Assembly: GCA_035651995.1 (NCBI GenBank)
Contig: DASRER010000048.1
Coordinates: 1-64,000 of the forward strand
DNA: 64,000 nucleotides
Source of the DNA: Terriglobales bacterium
Lineage (GTDB): Bacteria > Acidobacteriota > Terriglobia > Terriglobales > Acidobacteriaceae
Direction of reading: 5' to 3'
Part shown: one piece after another, positions 15,637-18,485 of the stretch
How positions within the stretch are numbered: position 1 is the first letter of the stretch
Layout: each line of letters opens with the position of its first letter
The notes under the pieces: generated by a model
What the model saw: the letters and a program-made list of their open reading frames with translations, nothing else
Database searches by the model: none
Told to the model about the DNA's origin: nothing
Translations under genes and position numbers: made by a program

Positions 15637-17184
15637 GTGGACCCGCTCCGCATCCCCGAACGGTTCAACGCCGCCGCGTACTTCGTGGACCGCCACCTGG
15701 CGGAACATCGGTACGCGAAGGTCGCCTTCGAGTGCGGCGGCGAGCGTGTAACCTATGCGGCGCTCTACGAACGCGTGAATCGCTGCGGAAATGCGCTGCG
15801 CCAGCTCGGCGTCCGCGCCGGCGATCGCGTCATCCTGCTGCTGCTCGATACTCCCGCGTTTGCCTGCGCATTCTTTGGCGCCATCAAAATCGGCGCCGTG
15901 GCTGTCCCGGCGAACGTTCTGCTGAAGCCCTCAGACTGGCAGCACATTCTGGCCGACTCCGGGGCGTGCGCCGTGGTCGTGGCGCTCGAATTGCGGGATG
16001 AGTTCCTGAAGGTCGATCGCACCAAGCTGCCGAACCTCAAGTTCGTGCTCGTTGCCGGCGGAGAGTCGCTCCCCGGCGCGCTCAGTCTTGCTGACGCCAT
16101 GTCCGCTGCCTCGCCCGCGCTCGATCCCGCCGCAACCGGAAAGGACGAACCCGCGTTCTGGCTGTACTCCTCCGGTTCGACGGGCGTGCCGAAAGGATGT
16201 GTCCACCGCCATCGCGACATGCTCGTCTGCGCCGAACGCTATGCCAAGGGTGTGCTTGGAATTCGCGAAGGCGACCGTTTCTTTAGCGTCGCCAAGCTCT
16301 TCTTTGCGTATGGGCTCGGCAACGGGCTCTACTTCCCGCTTGCCGCCGGCGCAACCGGCATTCTGTGGCCCGGGAGCACCTCGCCCGCAAACATCTACTC
16401 GGTCATCGAGCGCACGCGCCCGACGTTGTTTTTCTCCGTGCCCTCGAACTTTGCCGCGCTCCTCGCCACCACACGCGAAGGCCGCGACTACGATCTCAGC
16501 AGCATCCGCTACGCCGTTTCCGCCGGCGAATCGCTGCCCGCCTCGCTCTATCACCGCTTCCATGAGCGTTTCGGAGTCGAAATCCTCGATGCCATCGGTT
16601 CCACCGAGTGCCTGCACATGTTCATCGCCAACCGGCCCGGCGCCGCCCGTGCCGGCTCCAGCGGCCAGATCATTCCCGGATACGCAGCCCGCCTGCTCGA
16701 CGAAAGCGGCCAGCCGGTCGCGGCCGGCGAAATCGGCAACCTGTTCATCCAGAGCGACGCCACCTGCATTGAGTATTGGAACCAGCCGGAGAAGACGCGC
16801 GCCACCATCCGCGAAGGCTGGATCCGCACCGGCGACAAATATCGCGTGGACGCCGACGGCTACTACTGGTACGCCGGCCGCTCCGACGACATGCTGAAGG
16901 TTTCAGGGATGTGGGTCAGTCCGGTAGAGATCGAGGCCGCGCTCATCGAACACCCCGCCGTCCTCGAAGCGGCGGTTGTCGGCCGCGAAGATGGCGAGCG
17001 CCTGGTGAAGCCAGCCGCCTACGTCGTGTTGCGCGACGCCGCTGGAACCGATGCGCTCGCCGCCGAGCTTCAGCAGTTCGTCGCGCAGAAGCTGGCCGCC
17101 TACAAGCGTCCTCGCTGGGTGGAGTTCCTGCCGGAGCTGCCCAAGACGGCCACGGGGAAAATCCAGCGCTTCAAGCTTCGCTGA
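15637..17184 (+). CDS. Benzoate-CoA ligase family protein (acyl-CoA synthetase)
   Basis: A 515-residue adenylate-forming enzyme: AMP-binding loop YSSGSTGVPKG (about 178-188), substrate-pocket segment SAGESLPASLYHRF, IGSTECLHMF (the A5 motif), RTGDKYRVDADGYYWYAGRSDDMLKVSG (A7/A8 hinge) and the closing PKTATGKIQRFKL with the catalytic Lys. The wording matches the benzoate-CoA ligase (BclA/BadA) subgroup, which activates aromatic or short acyl acids with ATP and CoA. It starts with GTG at 15637 and has no strong Shine-Dalgarno. No aromatic-degradation genes lie nearby, so the substrate is unresolved. Confidence 0.88.
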   Translation: MDPLRIPERFNAAAYFVDRHLAEHRYAKVAFECGGERVTYAALYERVNRCGNALRQLGVRAGDRVILLLLDTPAFACAFFGAIKIGAVAVPANVLLKPSDWQHILADSGACAVVVALELRDEFLKVDRTKLPNLKFVLVAGGESLPGALSLADAMSAASPALDPAATGKDEPAFWLYSSGSTGVPKGCVHRHRDMLVCAERYAKGVLGIREGDRFFSVAKLFFAYGLGNGLYFPLAAGATGILWPGSTSPANIYSVIERTRPTLFFSVPSNFAALLATTREGRDYDLSSIRYAVSAGESLPASLYHRFHERFGVEILDAIGSTECLHMFIANRPGAARAGSSGQIIPGYAARLLDESGQPVAAGEIGNLFIQSDATCIEYWNQPEKTRATIREGWIRTGDKYRVDADGYYWYAGRSDDMLKVSGMWVSPVEIEAALIEHPAVLEAAVVGREDGERLVKPAAYVVLRDAAGTDALAAELQQFVAQKLAAYKRPRWVEFLPELPKTATGKIQRFKLR

Positions 17185-17194
17185 AAGAAAGACC

Positions 17195-17266
17195 GCCACG
17201 GATTCTCGCGGCTGAACACGGATCGCTTCTTGGTCACAAAATCCGTGTCATCCGTGTTCATCAGTG
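17195..17266. repeat. Palindromic 'aatccgtgtcatccgtgttcat' element
   Basis: ccacggattctcgcggctgaacacggat is answered by the inverted wording atccgtgttcatcagtgg about 35 bases later. Such elements occur dispersed in many environmental genomes. It separates the convergent CoA ligase and rhodanese genes. Confidence 0.5.
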
Positions 17267-17273
17267 GTGAGTT

Positions 17274-17624
17274 CTACCGCTTCTCCCCGTGGTGATGGTC
17301 GCTTTCCGTCGGCAGGCCGGCATCGATCCAGCCTTTCTTCCCTTCGGCGTAGTCCCTGATGTTGGTGTATCCCATGGCCGTCAGTTCACGGGCGGCCTCT
17401 TCGGACGCGTGTCAGGTCATGCTGCCGCAGTAGACGACAATGTCCGCGTTCTTGTCCGGCAGCAGCTGCGGCCCGAGTTCCCGCACCTTGTCGAGCGGCA
17501 GATTGATCGCTCCGGGAAGGTGCGCATGGTGATAGGTCTCTGAAGGCAGCGTCTCGACCAGCACGAACTTGTCTTTGCCCTCGATCTTGCGTTTCAACTC
17601 ATCGCGGTTGATGACTCCAGCCAT
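17274..17624 (-). CDS. Rhodanese-like protein with an in-frame UGA (possible selenocysteine, or a nonsense mutation)
   Basis: ATG at 17624 follows AGGAGAGGAGG. Seventy codons read as a rhodanese N-terminal part (VINRDELKRKI, LPGAINLP, then the active-site strand DIVVYCGSMT). Codon 71 is TGA (17412-17414). The same frame then continues for 45 sense codons that complete the fold (HASEEAARELTAMGYTNI, DYAEGKKGWIDAGLP) and stops at TAG 17274-17276. In related small rhodaneses the loop after the strand reads C-x4-C-x-A-S, so TGA stands exactly where the second Cys is expected. Full length would be 116 residues, the normal family size. Either UGA is read as selenocysteine or a TGC/TGT has just mutated. 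The window shows no selA/B/C/D genes. Confidence 0.8.
17376..17397 (-). promoter_or_regulatory. Candidate bacterial SECIS-like hairpin after the UGA
   Basis: Fourteen bases after the UGA the minus strand reads GGCCG, a 12-base loop region and CGGCC. The stem is five GC pairs, with one more G-C pair possible after a mismatch. The distance from UGA to the apical loop is about 19-21 bases, inside the range usual for bacterial SECIS elements. The stem is short compared with E. coli fdhF, so this is suggestive only. Confidence 0.35.
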
Positions 17625-17691
17625 CTCGCCTCCTCTCCTTGTGGGATGCGCGGTCCCGCAAAAGGAGGCAGCTCCGTAGTTACTAACTAAA

Positions 17692-17722
17692 AACAGCCTC
17701 CGGCACGACGCCAGAGGCTGTT
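17692..17722 (-). terminator. Intrinsic terminator on the minus strand
   Basis: AACAGCCTCCGGC (17692-17704) pairs with the complement at 17710-17722 with a single mismatch around a 5-base loop. On the minus strand it is followed by TTTTTAGTTAG. It lies 16 bases past the stop of the S53-peptidase remnant, whose original gene it presumably ended. Confidence 0.7.
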
Positions 17723-17842: not shown

Positions 17843-17978
17843 TCAGTAACCAATTCCGGTGACCGTGCGCAACCTTCACGGCCCGAATGACCGCTGTTTT
17901 GCACAGCTTTTTCAACAACTTACGCAAGATTTCCCTGTTGACGCCGCCTCCACCACCCGCCACAATCCCCGAGCACCC

Positions 17979-18485
17979 ATGCTGTTCTACCTCTCCGGCG
18001 CCATCGAGTACGCTCCCGACCGCGGCACCGGCTGGCGCGCGGAGATTTCACCCTTTCTGCAGGCTCTTGGTCACCAGGTCTACGATCCGGCCGCCGACCA
18101 TCGTAAGAACCTGACCGAGGACGAGGCACAAAACTTTCGCCGATGGAAGACCGACGATCTGCCGCGCTTTCAGCGCACCATCCGAAAGATCATCGCCTGG
18201 GACCTGGACTGGATCGAGCACAAGGCCGGCTGCGTCCTTGCTTATTGGGACCAGTACTCCGGCCGGGGCGCCGGCTCGCAGGCGGAACTCACCTTGGCGC
18301 ACCGCCGCGGCCTTCCCGTCTACCTGGTCTGCGGCATGCCCGTGAGCGAAGTGAGCGGGTGGATTCTCGGTTGCGCCACCGAAGTGTTTCGGGATTTCGA
18401 AGAGCTGCGCGCTTTTCTGCTCAAGCAATCGGGGCCCGGGGATGCCCGGCCTGGCGATCAGCTCACCGTTGCGGCTGATCGCTGA
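17979..18485 (+). CDS. Nucleoside 2-deoxyribosyltransferase-like protein
   Basis: A 168-residue protein opening with MLFYLSGAIEYAPDRGTGWR, an SGAIE-type start typical of the nucleoside 2-deoxyribosyltransferase / DUF4406 fold. The middle reads DLDWIEHKAGCVLAYWD, where the D-x-D-W-I pattern and following acidic residues match the nucleophile/acid region of that superfamily. SQAELTLAHRRGLPVYLVCG is the GTxxE-type helix. ATG 17979 begins the conserved block. The frame is open upstream, but that part is not conserved in type. It precedes thymidine kinase by 29 bases, which supports a role in (deoxy)nucleoside salvage. Confidence 0.7.
   Translation: MLFYLSGAIEYAPDRGTGWRAEISPFLQALGHQVYDPAADHRKNLTEDEAQNFRRWKTDDLPRFQRTIRKIIAWDLDWIEHKAGCVLAYWDQYSGRGAGSQAELTLAHRRGLPVYLVCGMPVSEVSGWILGCATEVFRDFEELRAFLLKQSGPGDARPGDQLTVAADR

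Follow-up and report, generated by a model that had tools for sequence, protein, structure and literature searches.

Is a rhodanese gene that carries an in-frame TGA next to its active site broken, or does the codon specify selenocysteine (Sec)? The question is raised by a short gene within a stretch of 64,000 nucleotides (hereafter, the window) of contig DASRER010000048.1 from a Terriglobales bacterium of the family Acidobacteriaceae (assembly GCA_035651995.1). A preliminary description of this DNA, made from the letters alone, proposed a Sec-containing rhodanese with a C-x4-U redox pair, with a Cys codon recently mutated to a stop as the alternative. The comparisons below support the former: Sec genes, homologs with TGA or Cys at the same position, a hairpin past the TGA and a translated tail were all found. 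As the best overall explanation, it is highly likely that the gene encodes a rhodanese selenoprotein whose UGA is decoded by means of a hairpin and SelB and whose chemistry would involve Cys66 and Sec71.

The interrupted rhodanese gene

The gene lies on the minus strand, which the preliminary description had not specified, with the ATG at 17624-17622, the TGA at 17414-17412 and a TAG stop at 17276-17274 (Table 1). As originally described, the frame is broken by a single TGA, at codon 71, five codons past the active-site Cys, and then runs for 45 in-frame codons to a normal stop. When this TGA is read as Sec, a protein of 116 residues is obtained, with the active-site stretch Y-C66-G-S-M-T-U71-H-A-S. 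Rhodanese sequence does continue past the TGA, as had been claimed: the match to the Pfam Rhodanese family (PF00581) crosses it, spanning residues 8-101 with 58 bits (E 1.4e-15; cut-off 22.2). The reported Shine-Dalgarno element can likewise be read from the sequence as AAGGAGAGGAGG.

Table 1. Coordinates in the window of the rhodanese gene and the features associated with it.
Feature	Position	Strand	Basis or remarks
Putative rhodanese selenoprotein gene	17274..17624	(-)	116 codons, Sec71 among them, followed by TAG; translated with TGA as Sec; PF00581, 58 bits
TGA codon 71, read as selenocysteine	17412..17414	(-)	TGA at the aligned codon in 19/25 family-level loci, window included
Active-site Cys66 codon	17427..17429	(-)	Cys in 18/19 TGA-type loci; rhodanese alignment
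Shine-Dalgarno-like AAGGAGAGGAGG	17629..17640	(-)	Upstream of the ATG; read from the sequence
SECIS-like hairpin GGCCGCC-CGUGAACU-GACGGCC	17376..17397	(-)	Pairing table (29 sequences), 22-mer energy, covariance model
Terminator-like stem-loop, downstream of the gene	17195..17212	(-)	Consensus scan only
Terminator-like stem-loop, upstream of the gene, same strand	17692..17722	(-)	Consensus scan only

The gene appears to be monocistronic, since terminator-like stem-loops are present on both sides of it and the neighboring long ORFs (15637-17184 and 17859-18485) are located on the opposite strand. The scan that gave these stem-loops returned 4 sites against 1.1 expected in 851 bases. When ORFs of 110 residues or more, called mechanically, were compared by blastp over 21 loci (the window, L053, L054 and L133-L150), no operon partner was detected, as no neighbor group occurred in more than 4 of the 21. 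An Rfam search over 17200-17700 gave only two matches, both at chance level.

The tail after the TGA was compared between the window and 12 relatives taken from 28 of the TGA type. Over 429 codon pairs after the TGA, 98, 48 and 203 differences fall at codon positions 1, 2 and 3, and over 792 codon pairs before it the corresponding numbers are 218, 152 and 448; all of these comparisons share the window as one partner and are not independent. Residue identity with the same relatives is 72% after the TGA and 64% before it. Because the differences stay third-position-heavy, sequence comparison indicates that the tail is under protein-level selection and is translated.

Conservation of the TGA and its proposed decoding

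Some rhodanese match was found in 268 of 300 genomes of the same family. Residue 71 is encoded by TGA in 19 of 25 family-level loci (L021-L045, the window being L021), by a Cys codon in four (L033, L037, L039, and L042) and by TGG, for Trp, in two (L041 and L044); within this set, L030 runs off its contig, L043 aligns from residue 39 only, and L045 has a downstream frame fault. Cys66 is present in 18 of the 19 TGA-type loci, the exception being L040, with Trp. The Cys relative L033 has Cys at both loop positions, and its genome, G109, carries a TGA form as well (L146). Two TGA-type copies (L151 and L152) also occur within one genome, G643. A scan of named genomes gave at least 594 pattern matches and at least 259 relatives, from which the best 80 were retained, with the best match per locus; position 71 is Cys in 60, TGA in 11 and another residue in 9 of these 80. 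The closest named relatives among the matches listed are an Acidobacteria bacterium (L053) and Candidatus Sulfotelmatobacter (L054). At the phylum level, a search of 396 genomes gave 27 matches at E <= 1e-18, 15 of them with one TGA, including the window. In 13 of the 15 phylum regions fetched (a set from which the TGA match in G433 was left out), the TGA stands five codons past the Cys. The alignment of homologs suggested earlier as a check thus finds mostly Cys or TGA at this position, both in the 25 family-level loci and in the best 80 of at least 259 named relatives.

The source assembly (3.66 Mb, 48 contigs, 99% complete) contains all four of the genes for which a search had been recommended: selA, selB, selC (tRNA-Sec), and selD. 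The tRNA-Sec scores 69.5 bits (Rfam gathering score 47), and ARAGORN calls a tRNA-SeC with anticodon TCA at the same place; for the next two Rfam tRNA-Sec matches, which likewise reach the gathering score, ARAGORN gives tRNA-Ser. SelB scores 353 bits (cut-off 242), and SelD, which has one in-frame TGA of its own (AGUASK), is over its cut-off with 374 bits. Near SelD lies a piece of SelA with 397 bits (cut-off 268), cut by the edge of the fetched region.

SelB was further surveyed in 78 chosen genomes, comprising 31 with a TGA-type gene, 7 in which the loci read gave Cys or Trp forms only, and, as background, a further 40 genomes of the family that are fairly complete. It is over the cut-off in 28, 6, and 26 of these, respectively (60 of 78 in total), and the difference between 28/31 and 26/40 has a Fisher p of 0.023. 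Matches under the cut-off and about 265 positions long were taken to be probable EF-Tu. The three TGA-type genomes with no SelB over the cut-off are G091, G556, which is 75% complete, and G222, in which a 196-bit SelB match to positions 1-160 is perhaps a SelB fragment. G091 is 99% complete and is the genome of L040, in which the TGA is retained while the active-site Cys has become Trp; given this Trp at position 66 and the lack of a SelB match above the cut-off, this copy looks decayed.

In TGA-type genes, a hairpin, GCCGCC-CGUGAAyU-GGCGGC, begins 15 nt past the TGA. Its six stem pairs form in 29, 29, 29, 28, 27, and 29 of 29 TGA-type sequences, i.e., the window and 28 others picked for having the TGA, with Cys and Trp loci left out. 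By eye, the hairpin sequence is absent from all 21 Cys-type loci compared. The consensus hairpin fits the bSECIS rules as given in the available text of a 2026 review (PMC13188914), including a minimum free energy of -7.5 kcal/mol or below; the consensus 20-mer has -11.1 kcal/mol. Synonymous change is reduced over the hairpin: third positions differ in 16 of 84 pairs within codons 77-83, whereas codons 5-70 and 84-107 together give 590 of 1077 (Fisher p 1e-10; the pairs share the window as partner and are not independent). In codons 72-76, which are outside the latter count, they differ in 45 of 60 pairs. Synonymous conservation measured as the mean share of the commonest codon is less clear than the third-position count, with 0.85 for codons 77-83, 0.84 for the best other seven-codon stretch (from codon 64) and 0.61 outside. 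No two-sided pair change was found in the hairpin of the Sec clade in an alignment of 25 sequences. L023 departs at two pairs but can make an alternative 6-bp stem, GCCAGC/GCUGGC.

The hairpin of the window itself is the weak point of the case and its least certain element. It has an 8-nt loop, CGUGAACU, 6 pairs around one mismatch, and a UGA-to-loop distance of 21 nt; the mismatch is C.A at 17392/17381, the loop is unchanged, and a G-C pair is added at the base. The 22-mer has -7.2 kcal/mol, compared with the limit of -7.5 in the available text of the review, and free folding of 54 nt of the window prefers a different structure. A covariance model was built from 25 sequences (alignment A3), including the window, with L032, L043, L045, and L054 left out by choice. 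On the genome, this model gives 56.7 bits at the window site, which is itself a row of the model, and no more than 15.9 bits elsewhere among the 150 of 8225 first-look candidates that were scored. In the proposed decoding, the hairpin within the codons past UGA 71 would recruit SelB with Sec-tRNA(Sec), whereupon selenocysteine would be inserted. Decoding of UGA 71 as Sec is well supported by comparison with the relatives.

Were the gene a pseudogene, this copy would be truncated, either by a Cys codon that had recently mutated to a stop or by an error in sequencing. Such an origin would agree with the imperfect hairpin of the window and with Cys being the commonest residue at this position in the best 80 of at least 259 named relatives, but the same TGA occurs in 19 of 25 family-level loci and in 13 of 15 fetched phylum regions, the differences past it are third-position-heavy, and Sec machinery is present in the genome. 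Since many diverged loci retain both the TGA and the hairpin downstream, and since selection acts on the tail as protein, the nonsense mutation named at the outset is very unlikely. It is also improbable that the family is a true selenoprotein family whose SECIS is decaying in this organism, with mostly a 70-residue fragment as the product. One C.A mismatch in the stem, an energy of -7.2 kcal/mol where the consensus 20-mer has -11.1 and the decayed appearance of the relative L040 (Trp at 66; no SelB over the cut-off in G091) fit this reading, whereas the loop keeps its sequence, an extra base pair closes the foot of the 22-mer, the covariance model reaches 56.7 bits at the site, though with the window as one of its rows, and the frame is otherwise intact. 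It is extremely unlikely that Trp or some other residue is inserted at the UGA, through readthrough or a changed code. TGG does occupy the position in 2 of 25 family-level loci, but both are diverged (50% and 44% identity), and L041 lacks Cys66 as well. Moreover, the usual alternative is Cys (60 of the best 80 of at least 259 named relatives), the Sec gene set of the genome is complete, and a neighboring ORF of 515 residues terminates in TGA.

Proposed active-site chemistry and fused forms

In an AlphaFold2 model, with Cys replacing Sec (mean pLDDT 85.5), residue 66 is located at the end of a strand, and residue 71 lies two residues short of the helix that follows. In rhodaneses, the catalytic Cys ends the strand that leads into the active-site loop, and Cys66 fits this placement in both the alignment and the predicted model. 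When aligned to canonical rhodaneses, the loop of the window protein is two residues longer and has no Arg at its end. According to the available text of PMC8533005, sulfur transfer from thiosulfate in RDL2, TST, and a DUF442 protein depends on the residue that closes the six-residue loop, and this residue is Arg, Thr, or Ser in 13 solved rhodaneses. Judging from the lack of an Arg at the loop end, the predicted role is probably the handling of persulfides, polysulfides, or disulfides rather than that of a thiosulfate sulfurtransferase.

The proposed cycle begins at Cys66, the usual rhodanese position, where a sulfane sulfur would be taken up to give a persulfide. This persulfide would then be attacked by Sec71 of the same active-site loop, or Sec71 would form a selenenylsulfide with Cys66; the sulfur would be released or handed on, and a thiol or thioredoxin would reset the Cys66-Sec71 pair. 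Such an assignment, with a Cys66 persulfide and Sec71 as the resolving partner acting on persulfides, polysulfides, or disulfides, has in our estimate about an even chance of being right. The roles might instead be reversed, with Sec71 as the main nucleophile, in selenium transfer or in peroxide or disulfide reduction, and Cys66 as the resolving residue. Selenols are in general stronger nucleophiles than thiols, a selenium-delivery role has been proposed for rhodaneses, and the rhodanese-CBS relative L090 has TGA at both positions. However, Cys66 stands where rhodaneses canonically have their catalytic Cys, and 18 of 19 TGA-type loci retain it; L033, with Cys at both positions, is compatible with either order. 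We regard this reversed order as possible but doubtful.

The C-x4-U rhodanese also occurs joined to other domains. In six loci of the phylum (L159-L164), it is followed by a potassium-channel-like part with a filter-like SIGYGD motif and variants of it, and the TGA is at the same site in all six; Pfam gave Rhodanese and Ion_trans_2 in the three that were scanned. Examples are located at L160:304-1551 (+) and L161:2772-3989 (-). The hairpin of this type, in a register picked afterwards from the L160 fold (the first register tried paired poorly), has five pairs that form in 6/6, one in 5/6 and outer pairs in 3/6 and 2/6, with one two-sided change. A search of the 396 phylum genomes with one channel fusion found seven, namely the genomes of L159-L164 and G373, whose frame has the channel part but shows no rhodanese over the 330 residues that precede the filter motif. 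On sequence grounds, these fusions are a possible selenoprotein channel. In Actinomycetota and Chloroflexota contigs, eight TGA rhodaneses are followed by further sequence (L077, L078, L083, L085, L088, L094, L095, and L090, the last of which is U-x4-U with TGA at both positions), and Pfam found Rhodanese and CBS in both of those scanned, L090 and L095. A hairpin of different sequence lies at the same place in this group, with six pairs in 8/8 and one two-sided change.

Judging from the channel and CBS fusions, the C-x4-U module appears able to couple to membrane or regulatory domains. More speculatively, and rather unlikely on present evidence, the C-x4-U rhodanese, whether standing alone in Acidobacteriota or fused as described, would be a selenium-based sensor or reactor for reactive sulfur, the persulfide or redox state of its Cys-Sec pair gating the channel or CBS part. 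If this were true, the channel fusion would be a selenocysteine-controlled ion channel.

Other TGA-containing rhodaneses were encountered in the regions read. A second rhodanese of the CxU form, with the TGA two residues past the Cys, is present at L031:1082-1384 (-), L155:4961-5374 (+), L156:4786-5271 (+), L157:1816-2154 (-) and near 6165 in L123, and it lies near the C-x4-U gene in L031 and L155-L157. Against NF041203 (cut-off 115), the two of these that were scanned reach 96 and 90 bits. A deltaproteobacterial rhodanese at L113:6001-6315 reads YCRGYG-U, has a start that is lipoprotein-like by eye and is nearer to TsoB than the window protein is (66 bits; cut-off 805).

Relation to known rhodaneses and selenoproteins

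To date, the rhodanese selenoprotein motifs listed in the available text of the 2026 review (PMC13188914) are UxxS, UxxG, CxU (NF041203), UxxG, and UxxxxU (TsoB, NF045694); the term CxxxxU was not found in that text. Rhodanese selenoproteins are also listed, several without a motif, in the accessible parts of a 2022 review (PMC9312934) and of the Sargasso Sea (PMC1088965) and GOS (PMC2398784) papers. Because the COG0607 sulfurtransferase selenoproteins appear in the accessible parts of PMC2398784 and PMC9312934 without any motif, a C-x4-U form could be hidden in these older lists. A term search found no "rhodanese" in the main text of the deep-Sep paper (PMC12013277). Literature searches returned nothing on rhodaneses with CXXXXC or on a rhodanese-CBS selenoprotein, and, among the matches listed, nothing by title or abstract start on a rhodanese-potassium channel fusion; TsoB was found as a selenoprotein only in the 2026 review. 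In NCBIfam 20.0, no model is over its cut-off for the window protein. As far as this literature and NCBIfam 20.0 go, the Cys-x4-Sec loop is a new arrangement among rhodanese selenoproteins. It adds a selenoprotein type that NCBIfam 20.0 misses, and as this collection does not recognize it, proteins of this kind may be truncated at residue 70 when annotated automatically.

TsoB is the best NCBIfam match of the window protein, at 52.5 bits, far below the cut-off of 805. The two share a rhodanese domain and, by the motif in the available text of PMC13188914, a Sec that comes second in an x4 spacing. Yet both positions are Sec in TsoB, which also has a large fused portion (model length 572), whereas the window protein has Cys66 and 116 residues. 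The CxU form (form 3, NF041203, rhodanese_LYCAU) is, like the window protein, a small rhodanese with a catalytic Cys and a nearby Sec, but its Sec is located two residues past the Cys instead of five, and the window protein scores 35.2 bits against a cut-off of 115. Forms 1, 2, and 4 (UxxS and UxxG) have a PF00581 domain and Sec; compared by the motifs in the available text of the review rather than by sequences, they start with Sec, while the window motif starts with Cys. Thiosulfate rhodaneses such as RDL2, PspE, and GlpE share the rhodanese domain and one catalytic Cys, but their loop is the six-residue type ending in Arg, Thr, or Ser (13 structures in the available text of PMC8533005), in contrast to the window protein, in which the fifth residue past the Cys is Sec.

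A Foldseek search with the predicted model returned mainly rhodaneses, with the chains of Bacillus halodurans BH2092 (PDB 3nhv and 3o3w) among the best. BH2092 has the rhodanese fold and the same loop spacing, YCWGPAC (C-x4-C), but Cys replaces Sec, and identity in the structural match is 23%. Given these solved C-x4-C structures and the matched Cys homologs of the window protein, the contribution of selenium to rhodanese chemistry is directly testable.
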